Below, piece by piece: positions 43,520-49,269 of a stretch of DNA of 64,000 nt. The notes under the pieces are model-generated. The model was not told the origin of the DNA. It ran no database searches and saw only the letters and a program-made list of their open reading frames with translations. The stretch spans positions 7,440,001-7,504,000 of the forward strand of contig NC_135262.1 in NCBI RefSeq assembly GCF_964204865.1, given 5' to 3'. A program made the position numbers and the translations under genes. The DNA comes from Styela clava (taxonomy: Eukaryota; Chordata; Ascidiacea; Stolidobranchia; Styelidae). How positions within the stretch are numbered: position 1 is the stretch's first letter; every line of letters starts with the position of its first letter.

Positions 43520-43522
43520 CTT

Positions 43523-43532
<10 letters not shown>
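43520..43532. repeat. Target-site duplication, 3' side of the LINE
   Basis: cttaagggatttt here and at 49257-49269. The last four T could belong to the poly(T), so the duplication is 9-13 bp. Removing the element rebuilds a continuous site. Confidence 0.85.

Positions 43533-43569
<37 letters not shown>
43529..43569 (-). other. Poly(A) tail of the LINE (poly-T on the plus strand)
   Basis: Forty-one uninterrupted T on the plus strand, directly after the target duplication (the first few are shared with it). Such a long pure tract marks a recent insertion. Confidence 0.85.
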
Positions 43570-43724
43570 CTTTTTGCGGATCAGAAATTTTTTCAAACTC
43601 GGATCAGTGTCTTAGAGACACGTCATATCCGAGCCATAAAGGTATATCGCCTCGTAAGCATATTACTGCATGCAGTAATCATCTACTTCTGGAGGCTTCG
43701 GTATGTGCCAAGCACCAAAAGAGC

Positions 43725-43890
43725 ACAGACTTTCGCCCCGGGGTTTTTGTATATGCTATGTGTAGCACAGCATAACTTTCACCCAAGGCTTCCGCCTATG
43801 CCATACGGGGCACAGCACAACTTCCACCACCCGGCTTCCGTACATACCGCGTACAGGACGCAGCGTGACTTCCACCGCGAGGCTCCCGAT
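43725..43890 (-). repeat. Tandem repeats in the LINE 3' UTR, about 45-48-bp unit
   Basis: Three to four diverged units on the plus strand run CTTTCGCCCCGG, CTTTCACCCAAGGC, CTTCCACCACCCGGC, CTTCCACCGCGAGGC, each followed by a GTATATGC/CTATGCC/ACATACC and GGCACAGC-type stretch. They lie 3' of ORF2. Confidence 0.6.
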
Positions 43891-44008
43891 TCATCACATC
43901 CGCTTATATTGGATGGTATTAACAAGGCTAAAAAATAGGCGGTTTTGACATTGTGTTCGGTCTACCATTTGTGGTGGCTGGAGAAACTCCATCATTCTTT
44001 TTAAAATG

Positions 44009-47000
44009 TTACGTCGAGGAATACCCGTTTAGTATTTCTTTCCAATTTGTCCTGAGTCCGAGAAATTGTATATCTTGGAATTTGTATTCCATTATAAAAA
44101 GGAATTCTGCAATTTTTAGTGTTATCGCTGTTACTATATTTTTATCAGTGGGGGCCAAATACCTGTTTCCTATGTCTAGCTGGACCTTCAGTTTCATTAC
44201 AATGTTTTTTAGGATGACGAAACATTTTGTAACCAGTATTCTGTGCAAACCATTGTAGCTGTTATAGTATATGTGCTCCTTTGACACCGTGATGGGATTG
44301 CTAAGAAGGCTGTTTAGGATCTCGGTAATTTCTGCAATATATGCCGTTATTATACTACATTGGAAAAATAGATGGTTGGTGCTATCAGACGCAATTTTAC
44401 AGAACTTGCAGTTCATAATTTTTAAGATTCCAGTTGGTCCAAATCTAAGAGTTGTTCCTTTTAATCTATCCCCAAAAAAATAGCCTTCCCGTGCAATTCG
44501 ATAGGAGCAGACTCGTTCCGCGTTTGTATAATAGGAACGATCATCTCTTTGTAAAAGATGAATCTCCTCCCAATTGATGGTATCTTGTCGCTGGTCTAAA
44601 CAGTTTTCTTTAAGTTTTAGATAAATGTCTCTGTGTTTGACTATTTCCCATTCATCGTGCGAAAAGTTCACCGATCGAAAAATTTCTAGTATGTATGTCC
44701 AATATGCAGGTACTGAGATATCGTGAGGCATCGAATTACTGTACAACTCCTTATTTACGATCTTTATTTTTGAGCCCAAAGAATACAGGGCTTCGAAATG
44801 CCAAAATTGGTCAAGATTACTACCGCTCACGAGTGTCTTCAATTTTTCTACAAGACAGGCTTCTACTTTTGCTTTCATGTTAGTCATGTTAATTCCACCC
44901 TGATTCCAAGGTAATTGCATCTTCTTCCTATTGATTGATTCTATTTTTTCCGGGAACCACAAAAATTTGAAAATTAATTTTTGAAATGTTTTTATATTTC
45001 CCATTGGCATTGTTTTCACCTTCGCGTGGAATAGTATTACCGACATGATTAAAGAATTAATAACCACCGATTTTCCATACCACGTCATCCGCCGAGATTT
45101 TATATAGTTTAGTGTCCGAGATAATTTACGTTCGAGTTCGTCCCACATTTTGGCCGGTCGCTTTTGTCCAAAGTTTACTCCCAATATTTTGACGTCATCT
45201 TTAATATATTGTCCATATGAAGAGTTGCACATTAAAATTTGAGAAGGTTTCGTTATACATAGGAACTCGGTTTTCTGTTTGTTAATTTTTTGACCGGATG
45301 CGAGCTGAAAATTGCGTAGTTCCTGGAAAATTTCATTTATTGATATATGGTTTGCTACTGTAAAAGTTAAATCGTCAGCGTATTGGTCTAATTTGTGTTC
45401 GCACTTACCCAGTTTGATACCGTGGATGTTTGTATTCATCTGCACAGATCTTGCCAGGGGCTCGACGCTTATTGCATAGAGCAACATACTCAAGGGACAT
45501 CCCTGTCTTATGCCCCGCTTTATGGTGATTGCATTTGTCATCTTACCGTTTACATCGATGCAGGATTTAATATCAAGATACATATTTTGAATGACATTAC
45601 GAAACTTGCTTCCGAGCCCAATTTGTTTCAGAATGCTAAATAAAAAGTCATGGTCGACGTTATCAAACGCTTTTAAATTGTCAATTAGGACTATTGTACC
45701 GGGGATGTTTTTCTTTTTACAGTACCGTATGATAGCGTCGGTATTATAATGTACGTCGGACATACTTCTGTGGGTAAGCGAACATTTTTGGGATGAACTG
45801 ATTATTTTAGACATGATTGGTTCCAGACGTTTAACTATAATTTTCGAAATAATTTTATAATCCATATTTAAAGTTGTAATGGGTCGCCAGTTCTTTAGAT
45901 CGGTTTCGTCGTCTTTTTTATATAGGAGCTTGACTTTAGATAATGTTGAGGATTGTGGAAATGGGCCAAACGAGAAGACATTGTTAACAAGTTGTGTAAA
46001 CTGCGTTTTGATTATATTCCAAAAAGTTACGTAAAATTCTTTGCTGAATCCATCAATCCCAGGAGACTTGTTATTTTGAAGTGATTTAATTGCATTATAG
46101 ATCTCGTCGCTGGTGATAGGGTGTTCCAAAATAGCGTTTTCCTCTTCCGATATTTGAGTGGAGCTCATCAGGGATAAGTAATGTTGTTGGTGTTGTTCGA
46201 TGACTTCATGTTTTTCTCCCCATAGATTGCGATAGAAGCCTTCCACTAGTGACATAATTTCATCTTGATTGCTGACAATATCATTGTTTTGTGTTTTTAG
46301 CCTTTCAATTGTGGTCTTTTTAGCTCGTTGTTTAATTCTTGCGTAGAAGGTTTTTGTAGGCTTCTCGCCGTGCTCAAAATCATTAATGTTTGCCATTAAT
46401 ACATCTAGTTTAATTCGCTCATTCTGTAGATGTTTTAGTTGTAGTCTCAAGTTTTCGATTCTTAATGTATTTACCTTTTTTCCTTCATTAATGAGTTTGT
46501 CCAAAATGTTACGTAGTTGAGTTTTTTTGTTGTTTTTAACTTTTGCGACGGATATGGAGTACGCTACTGTATCTTTTTTAATTCTACGCTTAACGTTATC
46601 CCACCAGTCTTGGATTTTGTCGAAACCTTCCAACTCGGTAAGGGCAGATTCGTAGGAATTCTTTATAATGTTGATGTACGTATTATCATCATATATTGAT
46701 AAATTGTTCCTCCAAGTCCCTTTTCCCCAACGGACTTTTTTAGTTTGCTCCAATTTAATGGACGGACAGAGCACATGGTCGGAAACAGTGTTTATTGCGT
46801 AGCCTATATTCGAGATTATGTGTTCCATGTTTGGCGAATTATAAATATTGTCAATTCTGCGTCCTTGTAATCCGGCAATATACGTGAAGGTTTGTTTTTT
46901 GGGGTATTTCTTCCGGAAAGTGTCAGATATATTATTAGTTTGAATAAAGTTTCGAAAAATTTTACTGGGGGGCCGAAGTTTGAAATTTCTTGTAATCCTA

Positions 47001-47482
47001 CAGTCTATTGGGTCTAAGATAAGATTGAAATCTCCTACTATTAGGAAGTCATGAAAAACGCAGTAGTGAGTCAAAATATTCACCAGCTGTTTATAAAATT
47101 CTGTTTTCACAGGTCCATCTTGGGCAGGGCTATATACATTAAATATTTTTATTATCTGATTGTCTACCAGAATTTCAGTACTATCACACCGGTGTTGTAT
47201 GTGTATAGTATATGCTGGGGAGGGTATTGTATTTTCAGTTCTGACTAGTATTGTCGTTCCTTGTCTAAATTGTGTATCATGTTTTTCCAGTTTGTCCAGG
47301 GTGTTAAAAAAAATATTATACCCTAAGTCATTCGCCCAACGTTCTACAAGTAATTTGTCTAATCTGTGCGCTTCTTGTAGACACAAGACATTAGGTTTTT
47401 CATTTTCAATGAAAATTTTGAGACTGTTCAGATGGTGTTGGACGCCATTCGCGTTTAGTGAGATTAGGCTTATCTCATCCAT
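44009..47482 (-). CDS. LINE ORF2: APE endonuclease - reverse transcriptase
   Basis: 1157 residues, intact. The N-terminal apurinic endonuclease has its key motifs: LNANG (Asn10), LQEAH (Glu37), VGDFN, and SDH near residue 235. The reverse transcriptase spans about 480-760: motif A LIDNLKAFDNVDHDF, RQGCPLS, and YADD near residue 701. A C-terminal zinc knuckle CKFC-x8-H-x4-C lies near 1030. These are the parts needed for nicking the target and copying RNA by target-primed reverse transcription. ORF2 starts 101 nt after the ORF1 stop, so it is probably translated by re-initiation or a similar route. Confidence 0.95.
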   Translation of the reverse strand: MDEISLISLNANGVQHHLNSLKIFIENEKPNVLCLQEAHRLDKLLVERWANDLGYNIFFNTLDKLEKHDTQFRQGTTILVRTENTIPSPAYTIHIQHRCDSTEILVDNQIIKIFNVYSPAQDGPVKTEFYKQLVNILTHYCVFHDFLIVGDFNLILDPIDCRITRNFKLRPPSKIFRNFIQTNNISDTFRKKYPKKQTFTYIAGLQGRRIDNIYNSPNMEHIISNIGYAINTVSDHVLCPSIKLEQTKKVRWGKGTWRNNLSIYDDNTYINIIKNSYESALTELEGFDKIQDWWDNVKRRIKKDTVAYSISVAKVKNNKKTQLRNILDKLINEGKKVNTLRIENLRLQLKHLQNERIKLDVLMANINDFEHGEKPTKTFYARIKQRAKKTTIERLKTQNNDIVSNQDEIMSLVEGFYRNLWGEKHEVIEQHQQHYLSLMSSTQISEEENAILEHPITSDEIYNAIKSLQNNKSPGIDGFSKEFYVTFWNIIKTQFTQLVNNVFSFGPFPQSSTLSKVKLLYKKDDETDLKNWRPITTLNMDYKIISKIIVKRLEPIMSKIISSSQKCSLTHRSMSDVHYNTDAIIRYCKKKNIPGTIVLIDNLKAFDNVDHDFLFSILKQIGLGSKFRNVIQNMYLDIKSCIDVNGKMTNAITIKRGIRQGCPLSMLLYAISVEPLARSVQMNTNIHGIKLGKCEHKLDQYADDLTFTVANHISINEIFQELRNFQLASGQKINKQKTEFLCITKPSQILMCNSSYGQYIKDDVKILGVNFGQKRPAKMWDELERKLSRTLNYIKSRRMTWYGKSVVINSLIMSVILFHAKVKTMPMGNIKTFQKLIFKFLWFPEKIESINRKKMQLPWNQGGINMTNMKAKVEACLVEKLKTLVSGSNLDQFWHFEALYSLGSKIKIVNKELYSNSMPHDISVPAYWTYILEIFRSVNFSHDEWEIVKHRDIYLKLKENCLDQRQDTINWEEIHLLQRDDRSYYTNAERVCSYRIAREGYFFGDRLKGTTLRFGPTGILKIMNCKFCKIASDSTNHLFFQCSIITAYIAEITEILNSLLSNPITVSKEHIYYNSYNGLHRILVTKCFVILKNIVMKLKVQLDIGNRYLAPTDKNIVTAITLKIAEFLFIMEYKFQDIQFLGLRTNWKEILNGYSST

Positions 47483-47583
47483 GACTTATAGAATTGGGTA
47501 TATAAACAGATATATTTTAGGCTAATACTTGTGGTGAACAGGTAAATACTCATAGAAACTTGCAGAAAAAAAGTCAACTCACA

Positions 47584-49059
47584 TCATTTTTTCTTTTTTC
47601 CAGCTCCAGTAGTTCCCTTGTCCCAAGAAGACTCTGAGGATGTTGTATCCTTTCTATATCTTTTATTATTATAATCCTTCTTTTCCATAATTGACTCATT
47701 TAAGTCCATCTTTGGTATGTGAGGTAGGGGTCTGTTTCCTTCTAAATTTGCTGGGGCTGACCACACTTCTTGTGGGGAGGCAGAGAACAAGGACGATGTT
47801 GTGTCATGTCGTTCTATGTTGTTGATCATCACCTTCACATACGCCCCGCCCTTTGATGGTGGATTATAGGGCGTATTGCCGATTGTTGATGTTTCCTTCA
47901 ATCGTGGGGTAGGTCTGGTGTTAATTGATTTCGACGGTGTCTTGCTAATTGGGCTTAATATATTGTCACATTCTGACCAATTCGATGTTTCTCCTAATTG
48001 GTTTGGTGATGAGTCTACTGCCGAGGATGAGAATTCCGAAGTGTCTAATTGTGTGGGCTCTTGATTTTCTTCCAATTGTGTCATACTTTTTTTTTGTTTT
48101 GGTTCTACGTTTTGTTTTTGGTCATCTGTATTTTCCGGTTCAATGATTTGTCGTTCGTTTACCCGATGGTTGTTCGGTAACTCGTAATCTATATGAGAGG
48201 TTTCCACGTTTGTGTCTATTTCGGGCGACTGTGTGTTTAGAGTCGCGTCTTGTATAGGACCATTGCCTTGTGTAGGTTGTTGGTTAGTTCTTGGTATGTT
48301 TTGAACAGTAGGGGGTTGTTCTCTCCTTCTGGGGGCGGACCATGCATTACTAGGGTTGCGCTGGAGTGTAGGATATTCTATTTTTCGCTGATCGCAATTC
48401 CTCTGAATGTGGCCAGGTTTTTTGCAGTGTCTGCAAACGGGCTCATTCTCACATTCAGTGAAAATGTGACCCGTTTCCAGACATCTGCCACACGTTGGTG
48501 TGTACATCTCCCTTGGGAGGAAGGTTTTACAAATTCTACCGTCGATGGTGACAAAAGCTGGCAATCTTTCCTTTTTAAAATCATCCATCAGGAAGGATGT
48601 ATATCCATTGTAAATTGCACTGCCCCTGTAGTAGTTTCTGACGGCACTTCGGATTTTACCACACCCAAGATTGTTTACGATTGCTGCGGCCTTAGAGAAG
48701 GTCGTTTCGTAGAAGATTCCTCTGATGGAAATACGCACTGGTGGCTTGTTAGGCAACGTAACTTCTATTGATGTTCCCTCTGATTTAATCGATCCACCGG
48801 TAGCCTCAAGGAAATCGTCCCGGCAGCTTTTCCCAGCTTTTTCGGCAAAAGAGAGTAGCCAAGTTCCTCTTCGGCTTTCAAATAACCCTCTAATTTGGTC
48901 GCAATAGTTTTGAGTTACTTCATTTTCCTTTAGTATGTCCATCAAAGAAGAGAATTCCAGGTCCTGATTAGTCTTCAAATAAACTGTAAGCGGTTGCGTA
49001 TTTGCTTGTGAGTTTGTTAATTCCGATGGCTGTGCTGCTGCGGCGGCGGAGTAGTCCAT
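47584..49059 (-). CDS. LINE ORF1: CCHC zinc-knuckle RNA-binding protein
   Basis: 491 residues from the ATG at 49059 (AAAATGG, strong context); the frame is open about 22 codons further upstream without an ATG. An Ala-rich N-terminus is followed by a folded part (about residues 28-185) and two adjacent CCHC knuckles at 190-203 and 209-222, CGRC-x4-H-x4-C and CRHC-x4-H-x4-C. The C-terminal half is polar, low-complexity and ends KGTTGAGKKKK. ORF1 proteins of the Tx1/L1 branch coat the element RNA; the twin knuckles are characteristic of Tx1-like ORF1. Confidence 0.88.
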   Translation of the reverse strand: MDYSAAAAAQPSELTNSQANTQPLTVYLKTNQDLEFSSLMDILKENEVTQNYCDQIRGLFESRRGTWLLSFAEKAGKSCRDDFLEATGGSIKSEGTSIEVTLPNKPPVRISIRGIFYETTFSKAAAIVNNLGCGKIRSAVRNYYRGSAIYNGYTSFLMDDFKKERLPAFVTIDGRICKTFLPREMYTPTCGRCLETGHIFTECENEPVCRHCKKPGHIQRNCDQRKIEYPTLQRNPSNAWSAPRRREQPPTVQNIPRTNQQPTQGNGPIQDATLNTQSPEIDTNVETSHIDYELPNNHRVNERQIIEPENTDDQKQNVEPKQKKSMTQLEENQEPTQLDTSEFSSSAVDSSPNQLGETSNWSECDNILSPISKTPSKSINTRPTPRLKETSTIGNTPYNPPSKGGAYVKVMINNIERHDTTSSLFSASPQEVWSAPANLEGNRPLPHIPKMDLNESIMEKKDYNNKRYRKDTTSSESSWDKGTTGAGKKKK

Positions 49060-49223
49060 TTTGGAGTATATTCCAGGTAGTTTAGTATCCGAAGTGTTTC
49101 GCTGACTTACTAATCTCGATAGCACTCGGCTTTCCTCAATAAAGCTGATGGTGAGGCCCCTAAATAAAAAACACGACGGGAAGGGCCTTTCCCAAATCTA
49201 GACCTAATTAAACAGCGAACAAT
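49060..49223 (-). other. 5' UTR of the LINE downstream of the U2 head
   Basis: After the U2 match the sense strand continues ATTGTTCGCTGTTTAATTAG, which only loosely resembles downstream U2 (TGTTC, GTTTAAT). It contains a potential hairpin GGGAAAGGCCCTTCCC. It leads into ORF1. Confidence 0.6.
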
Positions 49224-49256
49224 CACTTGATCTTAGCCAAAAGGCCGAGAAGCGAT
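49224..49256 (-). other. U2 snRNA nucleotides 1-33 fused to the LINE 5' end
   Basis: The minus strand from 49256 reads ATCGCTTCTCGGCCTTTTGG then CTAAGATCAAGTG, identical over 33 nt to the 5' end of U2 snRNA, starting at its first transcribed base. The match stops just where the branch-site recognition sequence GUAGUA would begin. It is not a U2 gene: there is no Sm site or 3' stem-loops. The base at 49256 could also belong to the duplicated target. Confidence 0.93.
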
Positions 49257-49269
49257 CTTAAGGGATTTT
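49257..49269. repeat. Target-site duplication, 5' side of the LINE
   Basis: cttaagggatttt abuts the first U2 base, with no extra nucleotides between. Its partner is at 43520-43532. Confidence 0.85.

Follow-up and report, generated by a model that had tools for sequence, protein, structure and literature searches.

Among the long interspersed nuclear elements (LINEs) linked with U2 small nuclear RNA (snRNA) genes, Keno has been described as encoding an endonuclease of the apurinic-like type and as sharing with Utopia the U2 sequence at its 3' flank, which runs from U2 nucleotide (nt) 39 (PMC4640811). Here we analyse a 64,000-nt stretch of Styela clava DNA (C17:7440001-7504000 of the 376.6-Mb genome, referred to as the window), which contains on its minus strand a full-length LINE of the apurinic endonuclease (APE) type with two open reading frames (ORFs) and with U2 nt 1-33 at its 5' end. 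Relatives elsewhere in the genome carry U2, U1, U4 or tRNA sequence as 5' heads, target-site duplications (TSDs) enclose head and LINE together, sister LINEs lie inside U4 and tRNA genes, and a U4-headed copy has inserted off target. From these data we consider it probable that the window element arose by off-target insertion from a parent APE-type LINE residing in a U2 gene, and that its head is the co-transcribed 5' piece of that small-RNA gene.

Among named U2 families Keno comes nearest in target and, like the window element, is an APE-type LINE linked with U2. The two differ in that the 3' flank of Keno is described as starting at U2 nt 39, whereas the nick of the window family would be expected near nt 22-28 by analogy with the U4 and tRNA insertions described below. 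An original prediction made from the sequence of the window had pointed to the Tx1-branch elements of the Keno type, which insert in U2 genes; membership in Keno was not borne out, as the window copy lies at an anonymous site and no exact poly(A)-U2 joint with a flank starting at nt 16-40 exists genome-wide. The element is not filed as Keno here, the comparison being one of target and description. Utopia is likewise a U2-linked LINE, with some families described as weakly specific, yet it has a restriction-like endonuclease, whereas the window ORF2 is of the APE type with no other endonuclease family in the Pfam results; the Phytophthora copies are moreover reported to have intact U2 genes upstream, not U2 5' pieces (PMC4640811).

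Small-RNA sequence at a LINE 5' end, mostly in sense orientation, is also known from chimeras formed by template jumping, namely L1 with U1-U6 and R2 with U12 or tRNA (PMC13174262, PMC3414825). According to the account of the U6/L1 chimeras these usually do not propagate (PMC13174262), whereas the heads described here occur in four families, some of them stacked, and have gene-inserted sisters. The L1-type TRE elements of Dictyostelium resemble the present LINEs in taking RNA polymerase III (Pol III) genes as targets but are described as inserting upstream or downstream of tRNA genes (PMC5911963), in contrast to the insertions within the gene, on the same strand, seen here. R2 is co-transcribed with upstream 28S sequence and differs in having a ribozyme and a single rRNA target, whereas the present LINEs have poly(A), encode an APE endonuclease and use several small-RNA genes of RNA polymerase II (Pol II) and Pol III. 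SINEU are short interspersed elements (SINEs) with snRNA-derived heads and no proteins of their own; the window element is similarly a retroposon with an snRNA head, but it has two intact ORFs and so is not a SINEU. Searching the open-licence literature, we found neither a LINE in U4 genes nor stacked snRNA heads. The locus links three topics usually kept apart, which are site-specific LINEs, snRNA/LINE chimeras and promoter use.

The window element and its U2-headed relatives

The U2 head occupies positions 49224..49256 on the minus strand, with U2 nt 1-33 corresponding to window positions 49256-49224, and is identical at 33/33 positions to host U2 genes on C3 and C10. The 5' untranslated region (UTR) of the LINE (49060..49223, minus strand, 164 nt) begins at the very next base, so that the direct joint claimed in the original prediction stands, the only ambiguity being head base A1, which would equally extend the TSD. 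The start of this UTR, TTGTTCGCTGTTTAATTAGG, resembles by eye the 5' starts of several sister families, TTATTCGCTATTTGATTAAGG. The head lies within the two TSD copies, at 49257..49269 on the head side and at 43520..43532 at the 3' end of the element, which are identical (CTTAAGGGATTTT). The last four T of the duplication merge into the tail, a 41-nt poly(A) (43529..43569, minus strand; poly(T) on the plus strand) that has four bases in common with the TSD, and the duplication is thus 9-13 bp long. Tail length, duplication length and the anonymous nature of the site agree with what had been predicted, and the site is not U2-like.

Both ORFs are open. ORF1 (47584..49059, minus strand, 491 amino acids) encodes a CCHC zinc-knuckle protein, as judged from an alignment with four sister families and from a Pfam zf-CCHC match (E 6e-4) whose 20.2 bits are slightly below the curated cut-off of 20.8. 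ORF2 (44009..47482, minus strand, 1157 amino acids) encodes an APE-type endonuclease, PF03372 (Exo_endo_phos), at residues 8-236, followed by a reverse transcriptase, PF00078 (RVT_1), at residues 523-771, and the closest solved structure is human LINE-1 ORF2p (E 7e-68). The 3' UTR (43570..44008, minus strand) is ~70-77% like the LINE 3' ends at the locus of another U2-headed copy, B13. Endonuclease followed by reverse transcriptase in ORF2, together with poly(A) and a TSD of the kind left by target-primed reverse transcription, identifies the element as an APE-type non-LTR (long terminal repeat) retrotransposon. Rfam at gathering score gave no match anywhere in the window, presumably because a 33-nt U2 head is too short; no ribozyme was found at that score either. 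The predicted RNA fold of the element 5' end is not unusual against shuffles (z 0.14), though U2 stem-loop I forms.

The whole genome (~377 Mb) was searched with a 27-nt word, U2 nt 5-31, allowing up to 3 mismatches, with the reversed word as control. The U2 word occurs at 17 places and the control at none. Thirteen of these are exact and comprise 9 LINE 5' ends and 4 U2 genes; the four inexact places are all U2 genes, 3 of which belong to a C6 tandem array where U2 is of a different variant. Five U2 genes thus lie outside the C6 array, two of which (locus L018) were checked by Rfam and the rest judged by sequence. The nine U2-headed LINEs fall into four families: family A (the window element and L009, 98.5% identical), family B (five copies, 98.5-99.7% identical), L020 and L014. 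In all nine the head starts at one of U2 nt 1-5 and ends at nt 33 in the window, 35 in L009, 36 in L020, 40 in four family B copies, 38 in the family B copy L017 and ~50 in L014, so that a single U2/LINE joint is common to four of the five family B heads.

A TSD encloses head, LINE and tail in the window element, L009 (8-10 bp), L020 and L014, and in the family B copy B21 one of only 6-7 bp does so. Longer repeats from the 3' end of a different LINE flank copy B13; for B15, B16 and B17 no target duplication was recognised. B17 (L017; L062, C13:12.83 Mb) has an inverted layout like that of twin priming, in which the inverted pieces meet ~3 bases from U2 nt 1. The off-target sites have no residual likeness to U2 (five sites tested; the best score was matched by 22% of random windows). 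ORF2 likeness among the four U2-headed families is 36-50%, and the nearest relative of family A among five compared (L010, 60% in ORF2) lacks a U2 head; U2 heads were therefore probably gained more than once.

Some heads are stacked. In L020, U2 to nt 36 runs straight into U1 nt 1-39, the latter matching a host U1 gene exactly. Family B has, behind its fresh U2 head, an older and decayed one, identical at 25/33 positions in register from nt 1, a value reached by 0/20,000 shuffles; a sixth copy of this family (L068) is cut short within this older head. L014 reads in order a U5-like piece, U2, ~35 nt of a host locus on C3 and the LINE, all within one target duplication. The first piece, which we take to be U5, scores 35.4 bits in Rfam, below the cut-off of 40.

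LINEs inside U4 and tRNA genes

With ORF1 of L014 as query the genome gave at least 128 matches (98/581 candidates scored). We inspected 56 LINE 5' ends, picked for spread and need and hence non-random, and called heads by eye and with short exact words. Sequence of an snRNA or tRNA adjoins the LINE in 26/56 ends (U2 in nine, U4 in six, tRNA in eleven), two of the six U4 cases having only the U4 duplication. A further 4/56 have other 5' sequence, namely the decayed U2 head alone in L068, the C3 leader in L010, a coding-like piece in L082 and a tRNA-like piece further upstream in L096. In the other 26/56 nothing was recognised, and one of these, L080, seems to fall short of a LINE 5' end.

Copies of the same clade lie inside a U4 gene and inside genes for tRNA-Lys and tRNA-Ile, each read on both sides. 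In the U4 case, U4 nt 1-41 precede the LINE (L114), with the snRNA promoter motif CACCAYAANNNTTAG at -58 (11/12 positions; 11 was reached by 0/5000 random windows), and the remainder of U4 follows the poly(A) on the 3' side of the same LINE (L120; Rfam U4, 73.2 bits). The part of U4 repeated around this insertion is (ACC)AATGAGGTTTATC. A second U4 insertion, L113 on C10, has the same promoter and is followed in tandem by two further LINEs, both of them preceded by poly(A) and by the U4 duplication ACCAATGAGGTTTATC; the cluster to which it belongs (L112, L113, L122; C10:7.3996-7.4103 Mb), read on the 5' side only, holds at least three tandem LINEs in one U4 gene.

The same family also has an off-target copy, L115/L121, the U4 counterpart of the window element. 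It opens with the target duplication (A)GATTAATTAGGGTT and three additional bases, then reads U4 nt 2-41, the LINE and poly(A), beyond which come another run of A and a near-identical repeat of the duplication; no snRNA promoter motif is present at L115. Another U4 head without the promoter motif is found at L104, where a target duplication was looked for and not found. The U4 word occurs at 92 genomic places including the LINE heads, many of them in arrays on C4 and C10. Although the RNA that gave rise to L115 carried a U4 head, the on-target U4 copies inspected have this head once only, a pattern compatible with the carried sequence annealing to its target. Such annealing has been postulated in the R2 literature (PMC3774820).

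In the tRNA genes the arrangement is equivalent: L085 interrupts a gene for tRNA-Lys and L102 one for tRNA-Ile. In both cases the poly(A) is followed by the remainder of the gene, and the two flanks, once joined, are recognised as complete tRNAs, tRNA-Lys(ctt) and tRNA-Ile(aat), respectively. A third copy, L092, is within a tRNA-Glu gene as read on its 5' side only, judged by a flank held in common with the tRNA-Glu gene in L089. Relatives elsewhere retain tRNA parts as heads, a tRNA-Ile piece in L099, L100 and L105 and several tRNA pieces in a row in L088-L091; apart from Lys, Ile and Glu, the names we use for these pieces are assumed ones.

For the U4 and both tRNA insertions the nick in the bottom strand maps 22-28 nt from the RNA start, the poly(A) leaving a few bases ambiguous. 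Head lengths are 30 and 33 nt for tRNA, 41 for U4, 39 for U1 and 33-40 for 8/9 of the U2 heads, and the U1 head and these eight U2 heads fit the same type of insertion with duplications of 9-16 nt. A constant distance from the RNA start, drawn as it is from three observed genes (U4 and two tRNAs), is a lead and not a finding.

The source of the U2 head

The agreement between head lengths and the U4 and tRNA insertions leads us to regard the U2 head of the window element as the 5' portion of a U2 gene in which the parent copy formerly lay. In the cycle that we propose, a LINE would insert slightly more than 20 nt (~25) inside a small-RNA gene, and its RNA would start at the +1 position of the host gene, carrying the first 30-50 nt of that gene as a head. 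Upon re-entry into the same kind of gene the head would be homologous to the target and leave no trace, presumably absorbed by annealing, whereas on landing elsewhere it would be copied in as foreign sequence, and on entry into a different small-RNA gene a second head would become stacked in front of the first. Were U2 insertions to behave like those in U4 and tRNA genes, a nick near nt 22-28 would be expected, and nt 33 would mark where the TSD ends on its far side and not where the LINE inserted. The U2-headed copies would then derive from a U2-inserted parent that is now lost or is absent from the assembly.

A broader form of this proposal, which we put forward tentatively and hold to be somewhat doubtful, is that a promoterless LINE clade inserts ~22-28 nt past the start of small-RNA genes transcribed by Pol II (U4, probably U1, U2 and U5) or Pol III (tRNA), aimed by distance as well as sequence, that the carried piece guides the next on-target 5' joint, and that stacked heads log changes of target. 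If the cycle is true, heads on stray copies reveal the genes that housed parent copies, carried target sequence has a use outside rDNA (the ribosomal RNA genes), and there is a natural test of targeting by distance from the transcription start. The genome is well suited to such comparison, having gene-inserted and stray copies of apparently one family with the same 5' UTR.

Several results weigh against a U2-inserted parent, and no insertion in a U2 gene was found in this assembly as a source of the U2 heads. The 27-nt word revealed no LINE-interrupted U2 gene from the 5' side, and none was found from the U2 3' half among 100 of 239 places listed, where four places outside the known genes and the main array were inspected without a LINE joint being seen. 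The genome-wide search for poly(A)-U2 joints, with exact words for 3' flanks starting at nt 16-40, was equally negative, and a search for LINEs in U1 at the predicted place gave four matches, all of them U1 genes, and no insertion. The promoter motif, derived from the U1 and U2 genes of C2, C3 and C10, is absent from all nine U2-headed copies (best 9/12, off position). Some real snRNA genes also score weakly, two C5 U1 genes with 9/12 and the C6 U2 array with 8/12, and the motif thus marks only some snRNA genes. Of only six indels between the window element and L009, one falls exactly at the U2/LINE joint, which would fit a fresh capture and a fresh insertion on target equally well. Finally, L014 and L067 (C13:2247380-2247980) are near-identical in ORF1 (99%) and yet differ in their heads: the 5' end of L067 is a tRNA-Lys-like 5' half and not U5 plus U2, and a target duplication looked for there was not found.

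Some of these observations sustain the main alternative, in which the reverse transcriptase jumped onto U2 RNA as a template and some of the resulting chimeras founded lineages, family B having its head by inheritance. Template jumps are documented for L1 with U1-U6 (PMC13174262) and for R2 with U12 and tRNA, in one reported instance founding a possible new subfamily (PMC3414825), and the sense snRNA head inside the TSD of the window element is what such a jump would leave. Neither the U2 5' word, the listed 3'-half places nor the exact poly(A)-U2 joints yielded a U2-inserted source, the L014 and L067 heads differ, and so do the joints of the window and L009. Template jumping had been our first reading of the heads and was displaced once the sequence 3' of L085 and L102 turned out to complete the tRNA genes: in the sister families, heads of similar length are the 5' parts of genes that house the LINE. 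Jumping leaves unexplained why tRNA, U4, U1 and most U2 heads alike end at 30-41 nt, whereas the U6/L1 chimeras are described as usually holding full-length U6 (PMC13174262), and four of the five family B U2 heads have one common joint. On whether a head is newly acquired at each insertion, that common joint stands against the indel at the window/L009 joint. We regard template jumping onto U2 RNA as unlikely, though as the foremost competitor of a U2-inserted parent. The original prediction had also ranked template switching lower, and this ranking is retained here although the U2 source that it invoked is missing; it had further held that a one-off switch would be the better explanation if no U2-inserted copy existed and other copies were headless, and on this the outcome is divided, no U2-inserted copy having been found while other copies are headed.

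It appears very improbable that, ahead of reverse transcription, an snRNA piece was attached to the LINE transcript through RNA ligation or aberrant trans-splicing. Ligation of RNAs has been considered, as one of two mechanisms, for U6/L1 chimeras (PMC13174262), but the joints here are at varied U2 positions (nt 33, 35, 36, 38, 40 and ~50) with no common splice-site sequence by eye, and the U4 and tRNA cases need no ligation. That the LINE merely adjoins a pre-existing U2 fragment or pseudogene is refuted by the position of the head within the TSDs, by the same arrangement at nine unrelated loci and by the make-up of the 17 places, which are 9 LINE heads and 8 U2 genes with no solo U2 5' fragment. 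For the U2-inserted parent, then, the cycle is seen in kind in the sister U4 family and eight other U2-headed copies accompany the window element, in line with the predicted off-target retrotransposition of a chimeric RNA; the predicted source copy at U2 33/34 did not materialize, as no LINE-bearing U2 gene was found in the assembly.

Further 5' pieces and U2 loci

The C3 sequence at the 5' ends of L010 and L014 traces to a lone host locus (L125, C3:12145850-12146240) that matches ~20-35 nt of these ends. A spliced leader was considered as the origin of the common motif and rejected, the motif tracing to this single locus. L125 has a TATA-like box ~30 nt upstream and no Rfam match, and the piece derived from it resembles the start of some other transcript. 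At L082 (C8:7882600-7883200) the LINE 5' head contains a start codon and is coding-like, reading MSTAAKKTVQKRAPAAHPSYKEM; it resembles what we assume to be a histone H1 start, which is unconfirmed, a search of solved structures with the 29 residues having given no match.

The tandem array of variant U2 genes on C6 (L037-L039, C6:17.53-17.77 Mb) has a unit of 1169 nt and is the source of most of the 231 plus-strand matches to the U2 3' half. It was rejected as the origin of the heads, as the units inspected differ from the nine heads and from the dispersed U2 genes. On C16 two U2 copies (L116, L117; 20.337 and 20.361 Mb), which start only at ~nt 16, lie in opposite directions 24 kb apart; they are identical over the 171 nt read and have no LINE end upstream. 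At L096 (C8:1403370-1403870) a tRNA-like 5' piece, which we take to be tRNA-Asp, is contained in a ~85-nt repeat of flanking sequence, upstream of a family D LINE.

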